Shown here in pieces: positions 58,092 to 62,492 of a DNA stretch of 64,000 nucleotides. The stretch spans positions 3,968,001 to 4,032,000 of the forward strand of contig NZ_CP049868.1 in assembly GCF_011303555.1 (NCBI RefSeq), in the 5' to 3' direction. Each line of letters starts with the position of its first letter. Position 1 is the stretch's first letter. Position numbers and translations under genes: made by a program. The DNA is from Pedobacter sp. HDW13 (GTDB lineage: Bacteria; Bacteroidota; Bacteroidia; Sphingobacteriales; Sphingobacteriaceae). Under the pieces are notes generated by a model. It saw only the letters and a list, made by a program, of their open reading frames with translations, had not been told where the DNA came from and did no database searches.

Positions 58092-60506
58092 TTAATTTTT
58101 GCCCACCCTGTTTTCCTCTTCGCTGGTACCTGTACTTCTGCTACGGGCAGTTTTTATTTTCATATTGCCGAACTTATAAGTGAAACTTAAGTTTACTCTA
58201 CGGCTTTCCCATTCATTTCTCCAGTAAGTTTTAATGTTGTTGTATTCCAGGTTTGCCCTAAAAGAATTCGTATTAAAAATATCATTAACCTTTAAAGCAA
58301 GTGTTGCATTCTTTTTCCAGAATGTTTTTTTAGCACCAATATTTAACTGGTAACTGCCTAAACTCTGAAACAAACCCGAAACCGAGGGCGAATCGTAATA
58401 GGCATAAGTAGTTAAGCTATAGTTTTTAGGTAAAGTAATGGTGTTATCCATCATTACCGACCAGTTCCACGAAAAAGCATTAAAGCCATTTCCCTGCACT
58501 GCCGATTGTGTGCGGTTAAATCCAGCCGAAACCTCGGTATTGTTGTTCCACCATTTGGTTATATCAACCGGACTACCCGTGGCCATGTAAAAATTGGTAG
58601 TGCGGTTCAGGTTTTCGGGTCTCGATATACTTTCTTTAGTAGCATCGTTCTGATACACCACTTCCCACATCGAACCATTGTTAACCGAATAGCTTAAAGT
58701 TAACACCCTGAAATTTTTGATCGAATAATTCAATTCGAAACTGTTTGCAAAAGAAGGTTGTAACAAAGGGTTCCCTTGTAATGCGGTGTAAGGATCGCTA
58801 TAGAAAGTAAAGGGATTTAAGCTGCTGTACGAAGGGCGGTTAATGCTTTTTCGGTAAGCCGCGGTAAGCAGGTTGTTCGAATCAATTTTTAATGAAACAA
58901 AAACGGTTGGAAAAAGCTTCCAGTATTTTCTGTCGATTAGCGTATTGGTACCCGATGAGCTACCATTTCCCAGCGTTTGTTCGGCCCGAAGACCTGCCTT
59001 GATTTGTATATTTTTGAAACTCTGATCCGATGAAAGGTAGATGGCATTGATGTTTTCGTGATATAAAAACTGGTTTGTACGTCGAGCATCATTAATCCAT
59101 CCCGCCGTTTTTAACGAATCGAAACGCACATCGCTCTGCGATTTTACCCAGCTGCTTTTCCAGCCGGTTTCCATTTTAAATGTTTTATTAAAGTTTAAAG
59201 TATAGTCGGCCTTTACCGAATAGATGGCTACATTGCCCATTCCCATATTGCGTAAATCGATAGGATTGCCAATCACATTATCGCTTGCATCGAGGTAGGT
59301 GTTGGTAAAGGTTTCGTTTTTGCTGTTATCGTAACGCACGTAATCAGCATCAAAGCCCAGCTCGCCGCCTAAACTATCGGTTTTATAGCGGTAATTGATG
59401 TTAAAAGCATGGTTTTTCTCTGTATTGGATTGCGGATTAAACATCGATGTTGCACCCATTTTTGTGCCTGCAGCATTGTAATTAATCGAGTTGCTGTTTA
59501 CTTTGGTTTCTTCAGGAGCAGTAAAGCCTTTTACCATTATACCTAAAGTATGCTTCTCGTTCATAAAATAATCGGCTCCGGTAGAGTAGTTGAGGCTATT
59601 GGTAACCGGATGCCAGAAATTAAGCTGGTTATATTGTTCTTCGCCAATGCTGCGGTTTAGGGTTAAGCGGTTGTAAGAATTGTAATGGCCAGCATTTAAA
59701 CGGAGATAGGTACTCACCTTACCAATATTGTAGTTGAGGTTGGTTCCTCCGTAAACCTTTTCGTAACGACCATAACCCCCGCCCAGGTTCATGTTGCCAT
59801 TAAAACCCTGCATTTTGTTCCTTTTCAGTTTAATGTTGATAATCCCGGCGGTGCCAGCTGCATCAAAAGAAGCAGGAGGGTTAGAAATCAGCTCGATTTT
59901 ACTCAGTACCGAACCAGGCAGCGATTTCAGGTAAGTGGTTAACTCCTGGCCGCTCATGTAGCTCATTTTACCATCAATCATCACATTGATGCCGCTTTTA
60001 CCTTTTAACACAATATTATCGTCCTTATCAAGCTTTACACCCGGCGACCGGCTAATGACTTCAAGAGCATTATCGCCCGCGGTATTCATCTGTTCTACAT
60101 TTACAATTACCCGGTCGGCTTTTTGATCGATAACCGGCATTTTGGATACAATGTTTACTTCTTTTAAGTTTTGCGAGTGGTCAGTTAATACAATCACCGG
60201 TACTTTTACAGTGGTTGCTTTTACCTCAAAACTTGCCGATTGATTTTTATCATAACCCATCATCAATGCTTTGATTAAATACCGGCCTGCCTTAACATCA
60301 TTAAACGCGTATACGCCTTGCTGGTTGGTAGCCTGTAAAGCAACCGAAGCCGAATCGGGCAAGTGGATCAGTGCTACTGATGCATAATCTAAAGCTTTGT
60401 TGCTTTTATCGGTGATTGTTCCCGATACCTTGGTAGTTTGCGCCAGGGCAGTTTGAATGCCTGAAATAAATAATATAAAAAGAGCAGTCTTAAATAAGCG
60501 GTTCAT
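58092..60506 (-). CDS. Outer-membrane beta-barrel family protein (TonB-receptor-like)
   Basis: 804-aa outer-membrane protein. The start at 60506 gives the signal peptide MNRLFKTALFILFISGIQTALAQ; an upstream TTG adds ten residues. A CarboxypepD_reg-like domain (about residues 23-105, TKVSGTITDKSNKALDYASVALI) precedes a plug domain (about 120-220, with SGINVMIDGKMSYMSGQEL) and a long barrel (about 230-790). It lacks SusD partners and belongs to the outer_membrane_beta-barrel family of Bacteroidota rather than classical SusC. It is divergent from lytS-lytR, and the shared region holds LytTR-like repeats, so it is probably under their control. Confidence 0.9.
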   Translation of the reverse strand: MNRLFKTALFILFISGIQTALAQTTKVSGTITDKSNKALDYASVALIHLPDSASVALQATNQQGVYAFNDVKAGRYLIKALMMGYDKNQSASFEVKATTVKVPVIVLTDHSQNLKEVNIVSKMPVIDQKADRVIVNVEQMNTAGDNALEVISRSPGVKLDKDDNIVLKGKSGINVMIDGKMSYMSGQELTTYLKSLPGSVLSKIELISNPPASFDAAGTAGIINIKLKRNKMQGFNGNMNLGGGYGRYEKVYGGTNLNYNIGKVSTYLRLNAGHYNSYNRLTLNRSIGEEQYNQLNFWHPVTNSLNYSTGADYFMNEKHTLGIMVKGFTAPEETKVNSNSINYNAAGTKMGATSMFNPQSNTEKNHAFNINYRYKTDSLGGELGFDADYVRYDNSKNETFTNTYLDASDNVIGNPIDLRNMGMGNVAIYSVKADYTLNFNKTFKMETGWKSSWVKSQSDVRFDSLKTAGWINDARRTNQFLYHENINAIYLSSDQSFKNIQIKAGLRAEQTLGNGSSSGTNTLIDRKYWKLFPTVFVSLKIDSNNLLTAAYRKSINRPSYSSLNPFTFYSDPYTALQGNPLLQPSFANSFELNYSIKNFRVLTLSYSVNNGSMWEVVYQNDATKESISRPENLNRTTNFYMATGSPVDITKWWNNNTEVSAGFNRTQSAVQGNGFNAFSWNWSVMMDNTITLPKNYSLTTYAYYDSPSVSGLFQSLGSYQLNIGAKKTFWKKNATLALKVNDIFNTNSFRANLEYNNIKTYWRNEWESRRVNLSFTYKFGNMKIKTARSRSTGTSEEENRVGKN

Positions 60507-60571
60507 GGGTTGTTGTTTTATAATTGATTGATCCAAAGATGCAGCGGCCGCAGGAGCCTGAAAATTAAATC

Positions 60572-60672
60572 ATCCCAACCCCTCAAAATATTATCCCAAC
60601 CGGCTTTGAGACTTTAAATGCCTTTCGTACTAAAAAAGGAGGGGTTGGGATAATTATTTATAGGTTTGGCAT
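60572..60672. promoter_or_regulatory. Paired direct repeats, probable LytTR regulator binding sites
   Basis: GTTGGGAT-like words occur four times in two mirror-image pairs: ATCCCAAC at 60572-60579 and 60593-60600 (21 bp start to start) facing the barrel gene, and GTTGGGAT at 60644-60651 with TTTGGCAT at 60665-60672 (again 21 bp) facing lytS. A 13-bp perfect inverted repeat (60572-60584 with 60639-60651) links them. LytTR proteins such as AgrA bind 9-bp direct repeats about 21 bp apart, so these are probable sites of the regulator at 61761. Confidence 0.65.
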
Positions 60673-60714
60673 AAGAAAATAGGCCGTTAAAAAAGCTTTG
60701 TATAGTTTTAGGGC

Positions 60715-61721
60715 ATGAAAACATTAAAAACGGTTGCACTACATATACTTTGCTGGGTACTGGTTCTGGGTTATTTTTACGGTGGTTCACTGATAGAAGG
60801 CACTACTTTAAGGGCATCGGCCTTTACCATTTCCATGAATTTTATTCAAATTATGGAGTTCTATATCTGTTACCTGTGGGTATATCCCCGTTTTTTAAAA
60901 AAGGGTAAAACCCCGTTTCTAATTGGGGGATCGTCCTGACTATTGCAATTTTTATCGCTTCCAGATACCTGATTGAAGAGGTTTTGTATTTAAAATGGTT
61001 CGGTTTTCATAACTATGCCGAAGGTACAACGGCCTGGCACTATATTTCTGATAACATTTATTGGAGTTTAGCCTTTATTGTAGTTCCTGCTGCGGTTTAT
61101 GGGATAGAAAAAAGCTTTTTGGCCGAACGGATGAACCTTAAACTCAAAGACGAAGTGGTAAAAGCAGAACTATCTTTTTTAAAATCGCAGATTAACCCAC
61201 ATTTTTTGTACAATACCTTAAATTATGTGTATTCGCTGGCCATTCCTGTTTCGGATAAACTGGCTAATGCGGTTTTGCGACTATCTGATTTGATGCGCTA
61301 TACTTTAAACGATAGCCCGGATGGCAAAGTGAGTTTGGATAAAGAAGTAGGCTACTTAGAGAGTTATGTAGAGCTGTTCAAGATGCGTTTCGAGCCTAAT
61401 TTTTATGTTACGTTTACAACTGAGGGCATTGGCGACCAGAAAATTGCTGCACTGATACTGATTCCCTTTGTCGAAAATGCATTTAAGCACGGCGCGGTAA
61501 ACGATGAAGCACAACCGGTACGCATTAAGCTTAAAGTACAGCAGAAACGACTGAGTTTTGAGGTCAGCAATAAGATCAGTCACGCACAAAAAGACCACAG
61601 CAGTGGGGTAGGTATGGTAAACGTACACCGTAGGCTGGATCTGATTTATCCTGATAAGCACGAACTGTTGGTTTCTAACAACGGCAATACCTATAAAAGT
61701 ACGTTGATTTTAAATTTGTAG
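60715..61721 (+). pseudogene. LytS-type sensor histidine kinase gene, frameshifted
   Basis: Gene for a membrane sensor kinase of about 335 aa: N-terminal transmembrane helices (two in the first frame, LHILCWVLVLGYFY and FTISMNFIQIMEFYICYLW, more after the break) and a His_kinase/HATPase pair with FLKSQINPHFLYNTLNYV (phospho-accepting His in the HFLYN motif) and VENAFKHGA (ATP-binding N box), then GVGMVNVHRRL. The first frame stops at 60937 after LIGGSS, while the -1 frame continues as NWGIVLTIAIFIASRYLIEE; the loss of one base lies between 60909 and 60935, near a run of five G. The kinase part itself is intact. Its response regulator follows 39 bp later. Confidence 0.87.
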
Positions 61722-61760: not shown

Positions 61761-62492
61761 ATGATCCGTTGCCTCGCTGTTGATGATGAATCTTATGCTT
61801 CCGATATTATTTCGGCTTTTATTAATAAAACGCCTTTTCTCGAACTGGTAGGTACCACGACAAATGCCTTTGAGGCCTTAAATATGGTACAGGAAGGAAA
61901 AGTTGACTTGGTGTTTCTGGATATCCAGATGCCAGAATTAACCGGCATCCAGTTTTTAAAAATATGTGGAGGCAAATGCAAGGTAATTTTAACTACTGCT
62001 TATCCCGAATATGCATTGGAGGGCTTTGAACTCGATGTGGTAGATTACCTGTTAAAGCCTATCTCTTACGAGCGGTTTTATAAAGCAGCCCAAAAGGCAC
62101 AGCAAATCTTAGCTCCTGTACCTACAGCACAGCCCGAAGTGATTCAGCAGCCTGCACCAGGCAACGACTTTATTTTTATAAAAGGAGATACCAAAAATAA
62201 ATTCATCAAAGTAAATTACGACGATATTTTATACATAGAAGGGCTTAAAAACTATGTTTCGGTGTACACTGCTACTCAGCGGATCATCACCTATCAGGCC
62301 CTGCGCGAGCTGGAAACGCAATTGCCAAAACCACCTTTTTACCGGATCCATAAATCGTACATCATTTCTATCGAGAAGATTAAAATGATCGATGGCAATA
62401 CCGTTTTTATTAACGATGAGGCCATTCCCGTTGGCGAAACTTATAAAGAAGAGTTTTTTAAGGTGGTAAGAGAAGGGAAGAAGCAAGGATAG
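61761..62492 (+). CDS. lytR: LytTR-family response regulator
   Basis: 243-aa regulator with a receiver domain (residues about 1-118; phosphoacceptor aspartate in VFLDIQMPE at about 55, conserved DD near 8-9 and the K in LLKPIS near 105) and a C-terminal LytTR DNA-binding domain (about 137-240) with FIFIKGDTKNKFIKVNYDDILYIEGLKNYV and FYRIHKSYIIS. It is the partner of the LytS kinase upstream (operon, 39-bp gap) and probably controls the divergent outer-membrane barrel gene through the 21-bp-spaced repeats at 60572-60672. Confidence 0.92.
   Translation: MIRCLAVDDESYASDIISAFINKTPFLELVGTTTNAFEALNMVQEGKVDLVFLDIQMPELTGIQFLKICGGKCKVILTTAYPEYALEGFELDVVDYLLKPISYERFYKAAQKAQQILAPVPTAQPEVIQQPAPGNDFIFIKGDTKNKFIKVNYDDILYIEGLKNYVSVYTATQRIITYQALRELETQLPKPPFYRIHKSYIISIEKIKMIDGNTVFINDEAIPVGETYKEEFFKVVREGKKQG

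Follow-up and report, generated by a model that had tools for sequence, protein, structure and literature searches.

Two genes are read away from each other at this Pedobacter locus, an outer-membrane barrel gene and lytS, and the question raised is whether the mirrored pairs of words lying between them are operators of the LytTR regulator encoded next to lytS. The window, that is the whole stretch of 64,000 nucleotides which was analysed, has a 208-bp gap from the barrel start (60506, minus strand) to the lytS start (60715, plus strand), and this gap holds all four words. The features are given below, where N26 stands for 26 bp counted from the 12-mer around the second half-site to the -7 box.

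58092 to 60506, minus strand: outer-membrane barrel gene (CarboxypepD_reg domain and OMP_b-brl_3, PF14905)
60534 to 60541, minus strand: predicted -7 box CATCTTTG of the barrel promoter (consensus TAnnTTTG; best -7 match at N26 in 38 of 38)
60570 to 60599, minus strand: candidate barrel-side operator TTGGGATAA-N12-TTGGGATGA (octamers at 60593-60600 and 60572-60579; pair in 38 of 38 barrel divergons)
60572 and 60593 (starts), minus strand: octamer ATCCCAAC, which is GTTGGGAT on the minus strand, as a pair 21 bp apart
60644 (start), plus strand: octamer GTTGGGAT, perfect
60645 to 60674, plus strand: candidate lytS-side operator TTGGGATAA-N12-TTGGCATAA (octamers at 60644-60651 and 60665-60672; pair in 64 of 65 distinct regions)
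60665 (start), plus strand: octamer TTTGGCAT, a 6/8 match 21 bp from the word at 60644
60703 to 60710, plus strand: predicted -7 box TAGTTTTA of the lytS promoter (best or joint-best at N26 in 36 of the 37 barrel-class regions scored)
60715 to 61721, plus strand: lytS (His_kinase, PF06580), frame broken at a G-run, ATG predicted at +1 (leaderless)
61761 to 62492, plus strand: lytR, with a response regulator receiver and a LytTR DNA-binding domain

Each pair is oriented like its own gene, which gives a mirrored arrangement at two back-to-back promoters. The word positions, the 21-bp spacing and the count of three perfect words and one 6/8 word in the original prediction were exact on recheck. 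The octamer count in the 64-kb window on both strands is 4, and 3 of these are in the gap. The imperfect fourth word is genuine, as near relatives carry the form TTTGG[CA]ATAA. The half-site is really about 9-10 bp long, TTGGNATAA, with a 12-bp gap between the copies. By the definition in PMC11347149 and PMC4847170, the copies of a LytTR direct repeat measure 9-11 bp and are separated by 10-13 bp, and TTGGNATAA-N12-TTGGNATAA lies within these limits. In the canonical LytTR sites described in PMC11347149, direct repeats of 9 bp are spaced by 10-13 bp, and most of these sites activate from a place upstream of -35; the 9-bp repeats, the 12-bp gap and the upstream place are common to these and the present sites, whereas the fixed 26 bp to a TAnnTTTG-type box differs here. 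The LytTR-type reading of the repeats, already proposed in the original prediction, is well supported. The regulator which it placed in the divergon is also encoded there, the lytR product having a LytTR domain over the cut-off by profile match (PF04397, 78.8 bits, cut-off 22.6; PF00072, 64.4 bits, cut-off 30.2).

By its relatives the genome belongs to Pedobacter, and the nearest named relative found is P. ghigonis (LytR 98% identical). Only 39 bp separate lytS from lytR in the window. The lytS frame is interrupted at the G-run 60925-60929 in the window strain and intact in close relatives; either faulty assembly or genuine inactivation may lie behind this break. The barrel scored 350.3 bits against PF14905 (cut-off 27). 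Sequence search of the barrel against solved structures gave no relative, with one chance match (E 0.39), and its AlphaFold model built from 15 sequences was poor (mean pLDDT 54.7) and was discarded. In some relatives a serine-hydrolase gene (Beta-lactamase family, PF00144) was seen between lytS and lytR (L035:5989-7188, L040:6159-7361, L042:1609-2805); the two genes have no such gene between them in the window.

The signal was compared with chance. For the single locus with free word choice, 2 of 1000 first-order Markov shuffles reached the observed mirror score; from one locus alone the mirror pattern is suggestive and not overwhelming. Base composition predicts 0.015 perfect matches to TTGGNATAA-N12-TTGGNATAA in the 6.4-Mb genome; two were found, one on the lytS side and one at a distant gene, and the barrel-side operator is one mismatch away from this pattern. 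A slightly looser word together with a -7 box at fixed distance gave three perfect genome matches (lytS, barrel and the distant gene); no one-mismatch match to this operator plus -7 pattern was found in the whole genome, and beyond that there is background. The mirrored pairs are beyond chance, which is ruled out because the operator is so rare genome-wide and because of its conservation across the 65 distinct regions upstream of lytR orthologues. When the -7 box was left out and up to 2 mismatches were allowed, the scan of the own genome gave 39 matches against 28 in the backwards control, mostly noise, and therefore weaker extra targets cannot be claimed.

Conservation was analysed across relatives. 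An lytR orthologue at E <= 1e-100 was found in 56 of the 119 genus genomes searched, and these with named genomes (LytR identity about 65% or more) gave the 65 distinct upstream regions. Two contigs without lytS (L031, L256), a barrel contig without lytR (L244, which has both pairs at 12/12), duplicates with identical 230-bp upstream sequence and loci below 65% LytR identity were dropped before counting. According to the gene facing lytS, the regions were classed as barrel (38), none (15), DUF5694 (10), barrel remnant (1) and S41 (1); an acetyltransferase gene reads towards lytS instead in the partnerless class. The DUF5694 calls were made four by tblastn and seven first by eye, with 1 of the 11 names duplicating a counted region; the by-eye cases L046, L224/L263, L234/L282, L277, L281 and L284 are over the Pfam cut-off and L230 was assigned by eye alone. 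The S41 cut-off (Peptidase_S41) is passed by L287.

The pairs recur before orthologous barrel-lytS divergons, as the original prediction implied. With a score of at least 10/12 at 21 bp, the lytS-side pair was present in 37/38 barrel, 10/10 DUF, 15/15 partnerless, 1/1 remnant and 1/1 S41 regions, and the divergent-side pair in 38/38, 9/10, 0/15, 1/1 and 1/1, respectively; the two misses, L237 and L242, have 9/12 each. First-order Markov shuffles reached 10/12 in 2.7-7.0% (barrel, DUF and partnerless classes). Wrong spacings in the barrel class also scored at 10/12 (20 bp in 22/38 on the lytS side; 22 bp in 21/38 and 17 bp in 17/38 on the divergent side), because one true half-site gives 6 and relatives share chance matches. 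At 11/12 or more the 21-bp spacing is specific, being found in 34/38 on the lytS side and 35/38 on the divergent side of the barrel class, with at most 1/38 and 2/38 respectively at other spacings from 16 to 26. The information per column is 1.70-1.94 bits in the half-sites and 0.63-0.77 in the linker, and the 12-bp spacer holds 1.05-1.37 bits in barrel and DUF promoters and 0.68 in lytS promoters; since the spacer is fairly conserved in barrel and DUF promoters, the half-sites are not distinct from all surroundings. The related genomes are non-independent and therefore counts and p-values overstate the evidence.

More distant loci were also scored. Four Chitinophaga loci (52-54% LytR identity) have a divergent barrel of 33-35% identity with the barrel-side pair at 9-10/12, near chance, and the -7 box at N27; the lytS-side pair is absent there (7-8/12). 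In Chitinophaga skermanii the divergent gene is DUF5694 and a clear pair is lacking (8/12). An S41 gene is the divergent one in Mucilaginibacter straminoryzae (L288, 64%), where the divergent pair scores 11/12 and CATCTTTG stands at N26.

The gene facing lytS is thus variable, and the barrel as universal partner was rejected, as it faces lytS in 38/65 regions only. The divergent-side operator is present wherever a partner gene is present. At least 8 changes of partner state (barrel, DUF5694 or none) are required on a 65-row tree of LytS+LytR, which came from a quick search and has some long branches; the remnant was taken as barrel and the S41 row excluded. Well-supported branches alone force fewer changes (barrel 3, none 2, DUF5694 4). 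The occupant of the divergent slot (barrel, DUF5694, S41 or nothing) has changed several times, with the operator kept. The idea that the barrel had merely relocated was not borne out: its sequence was searched against 12 genomes, and the seven without a lytS-facing barrel (G003, G007, G014, G021, G025, G030, G035) gave a best identity of 37% or less, the other five having it at 57-100%. In L217 (G074) the barrel is cut to a 63-residue remnant, with the divergent pair kept at 11/12 and the -7 box lost. This locus is a natural decay experiment for the divergent promoter.

The original prediction had suggested that the divergon is a self-contained unit, LytS/LytR controlling itself and the barrel. 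This did not hold, as a third operator-promoter is located 2.27 Mb away, at G000:C1:1757796 by whole-genome pattern scan. A further amendment is that other genes can take the place of the barrel as partner. Downstream of the third operator-promoter is encoded a 358-residue signal-peptide protein over the Pfam DUF5694 cut-off, with ChaN and TraB Pfam matches just under cut-off. The DUF5694 gene was found at E <= 1e-60 in 41 of the 119 genomes, 40 of which also have lytR (Fisher p ~2e-17, ignoring shared ancestry). The upstream DNA was checked in 37 of the 41; the remaining four copies (G088, G014, G061, G121) face lytS, are counted in the DUF class and have pair scores of 12, 11, 9 and 11 of 12. 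The operator pair is 11 or 12 of 12 upstream of DUF5694 in 36/36 checked genomes having lytR, with a TTTG-ended octamer at N26 in 35/36 (exception G125). The pair is absent (8/12) in G008, which has the DUF5694 gene without lytR at threshold; the contrast between genomes with and without lytR is this one case, because the trans target occurs in a single genome lacking lytR. The 13 partnerless genomes among the 119 all retain the trans target. Among the matches listed, further one-mismatch operators lie before S41 protein genes in G107 and G125, the G107 gene being split in two frames.

The model of the DUF5694 protein (pLDDT 68.7) gave no Foldseek match at E <= 0.001; ranks 4-5 were HopBA1 and ChaN, which fit the sub-cut-off Pfam ChaN/TraB matches and prove nothing. 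No literature match was obtained for Pedobacter DUF5694 in a search without most subscription journals. Directly before the trans DUF5694 gene, the window genome has a gene (L195:3576-4715) for an M28-type peptidase whose start resembles a signal peptide. Another PF14905 barrel gene was seen after the trans DUF5694 gene elsewhere (L204:5965-8478, L206:5622-8399, L209:6036-8807) and may share its operator; such a barrel is absent beside this gene in the window genome (L195).

The promoter geometry was analysed at these sites. Both operators of the divergon have an identical 26 bp to a Bacteroidota-type -7 box match. This box is TAnnTTTG at -12 to -5, with a -33 TTTG, in the text available of PMC6847099; from this published place the half-sites would fall at -70 to -62 and -49 to -41. 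The -7 match at N26 was found in 36/37 (lytS side) and 38/38 (divergent side) of the barrel class, 9/10 and 9/9 of the DUF class and 13/15 of the partnerless class, and 19/37 regions have a tying match 10 bp upstream of the lytS-side box. TTTG in a 10-nt window around -33 was seen in 0/64 lytS, 3/37 barrel, 1/10 DUF-divergent and 1/29 DUF-trans promoters, the last being drawn from 30 loci and not all 36 later checked; the L049 row was shifted by hand to another register in this and the information-content analysis. The sigma-A promoter features are thus, for predicted starts only, a -7-like octamer at a fixed place with the -33 mostly missing. The distance from the lytS -7 box to the ATG is exactly 4 nt in 59/64 distinct sites and 3 nt in three, with no ATG within 12 nt in 2/64; from the 4-nt distance a leaderless lytS mRNA is therefore predicted. 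For most LytTR activators the operator lies a short way upstream of a core promoter that is weak, according to PMC11347149 and PMC4227749. The operator lying 26 bp before the -7 box with the -33 mostly missing is an activator-type layout.

The sequence, the spacing, the fixed -7 distance, the conservation, the loss of the divergent pair without a partner and the co-occurrence with lytR are directly established. The reading that we hold with high confidence is that the four words would form two LytTR operators, one per divergent promoter, the pairs being very probably the landing sites of the neighbouring LytR. Most likely, two protomers of phosphorylated LytR occupy each 21-bp-spaced pair on the same helix face and, positioned at about -70 to -41, would assist RNA polymerase at promoters having a -7 box and mostly no -33. 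LytR would in this way activate the lytSR operon to which it belongs, together with the divergent barrel gene, and the secreted DUF5694 gene in trans; on this simplest account, with all three promoters activated, LytS/LytR would amplify itself and switch on envelope and secreted proteins together. We infer the binding, activation and not repression, phosphorylation by LytS, the transcription starts and the envelope or uptake role of the targets.

Repression by LytR, or activation of one promoter with repression of the other, is an unlikely alternative but the best surviving one. Repression by the LytTR protein CoxC comes from repeats that overlap the -35 box (PMC11347149), whereas the operators here would end at about -41, upstream of -33, and the equal -7 distance at three promoters with the -33 mostly missing is the layout of activated promoters.

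It is less likely still that a regulator other than the adjacent LytR binds the repeats. The window genome encodes 29 LytTR domains over cut-off, which leaves room for such a regulator, but the operator tracks the lytR orthologue, the lytS promoter having it in 64/65 regions and the trans target in 36/36 genomes with lytR and 0/1 without. Moreover, a 54% paralogue and a second LytSR family have different words before their own operons, which also speaks against another regulator. The second family (L198-L202, L207, L208) has mirrored pairs of a different word, TTGGTATAA, and its seven loci were chosen, among the matches listed, for a pattern match on at least one side. A related LytSR pair is encoded at 7/7 loci, L208 being the most distant (38% and 48%). 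The TTGGTATAA pairs lie on both sides in 7/7 loci with 12-14 of 14 positions, where the first side was selected and the second unselected, except that both sides were selected in L208. The selected side has a TTTG-ended octamer at N26 in 7/7, and the other side has a looser -7 match, TTTCTTTG-like in most; no other-side -7 match was found for the best pair in L198 and L199. Three tandem TTGGTATAA copies were observed on one side in L199.

In the upstream regions of the genome's own LytTR genes, 21 bp is an outlier spacing, with words matching in at least 8/9 positions in 7/30 regions, and other spacings from 12 to 40 reach at most 4/30. The 21-bp excess across the own LytTR operons is a trend, and some of the seven resemble coding or simple sequence. 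Pairs of GTTGGTAG or GTTGGTCTA type 21 bp apart were also seen at L174:2204-2463 (the 54% LytR paralogue of the window genome), L296-L299 and L307-L309; several of these operons face a small membrane peptide gene, and L174 has an ABC-transporter-like gene next to it.

A hairpin or terminator-like structure, in place of protein sites, is a highly improbable reading of the inverted arrangement: the first lytS word is the reverse complement of the outer barrel word and the match in the window extends several bases, but the arm match past the core word is 0-3 bases in 35/38 barrel divergons (5-6 in three), and partnerless divergons and the trans DUF5694 promoter have one pair only, still kept, so that an inverted repeat cannot form there.

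With the pairs read as activating LytR operators, the divergon would resemble the S. aureus agr P2/P3 pair in its working, and is not an agr system. In the accessible text of PMC4227749, the LytTR regulator AgrA likewise activates its own operon and a divergent transcript, as proposed here, with its own direct-repeat pair per promoter; the centre is at about -60 there and would be at about -55 here, as placed from the -7 box, and the core promoters are suboptimal in both. An own pair per divergent promoter was found in 37/38 and 38/38 of the barrel-class regions at 10/12 or more. The divergent product of the agr quorum-sensing system is a regulatory RNA, whereas here the divergent gene is protein-coding, for an exchangeable envelope or secreted protein (barrel, DUF5694 or S41). 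An agr operon also contains genes for a pheromone precursor and its processing; the gap between lytS and lytR in the window is the 39 bp given above. Unlike those of agr, the promoters here are of the Bacteroidota -7 type, and no SarA-like partner is known.

The targets of BtsR and YpdB are inner-membrane transporters. The E. coli systems BtsS/BtsR and YpdA/YpdB are also LytS/LytTR two-component systems, which respond to pyruvate and drive transporters, and a mirrored divergon is absent from their descriptions in the available parts of PMC5552118 and PMC4847170. The YpdB operator, likewise a direct repeat ahead of a transporter gene, has another word, GGCATTTCAT (PMC4847170). The best NCBIfam match of LytR is BtsR (NF008677) with 127.9 bits, under the 246 equivalog cut-off, showing that it is not BtsR by score. 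The pyruvate and transporter precedent would suit an uptake barrel. In literature covered outside most subscription journals, no LytTR binding site for Pedobacter was among the matches listed, and no match was obtained for Pedobacter and LytTR together.

The same promoter design, judged from its predicted parts, is shared by dozens of soil-dwelling relatives and is used once more at a distant gene. The word, the promoter frame, the auto-regulation and the three-promoter regulon, all of them predicted, make this system a ready target for EMSA and knockout studies, and the second LytSR family with its other word is a natural pair for studying the DNA choice of LytTR proteins. It is an evenly balanced possibility that Bacteroidota possess a promoter socket in which each LytSR family reads its own word in an operator-N26-(-7) frame at mirrored divergent promoters, the slot being refilled by envelope or secreted genes with the operator kept; the specificity of LytTR proteins would then be decodable for dozens of regulators. 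The partner swap behind a retained operator is a clean case of rewiring, in which the cargo is exchanged and the switch is kept.
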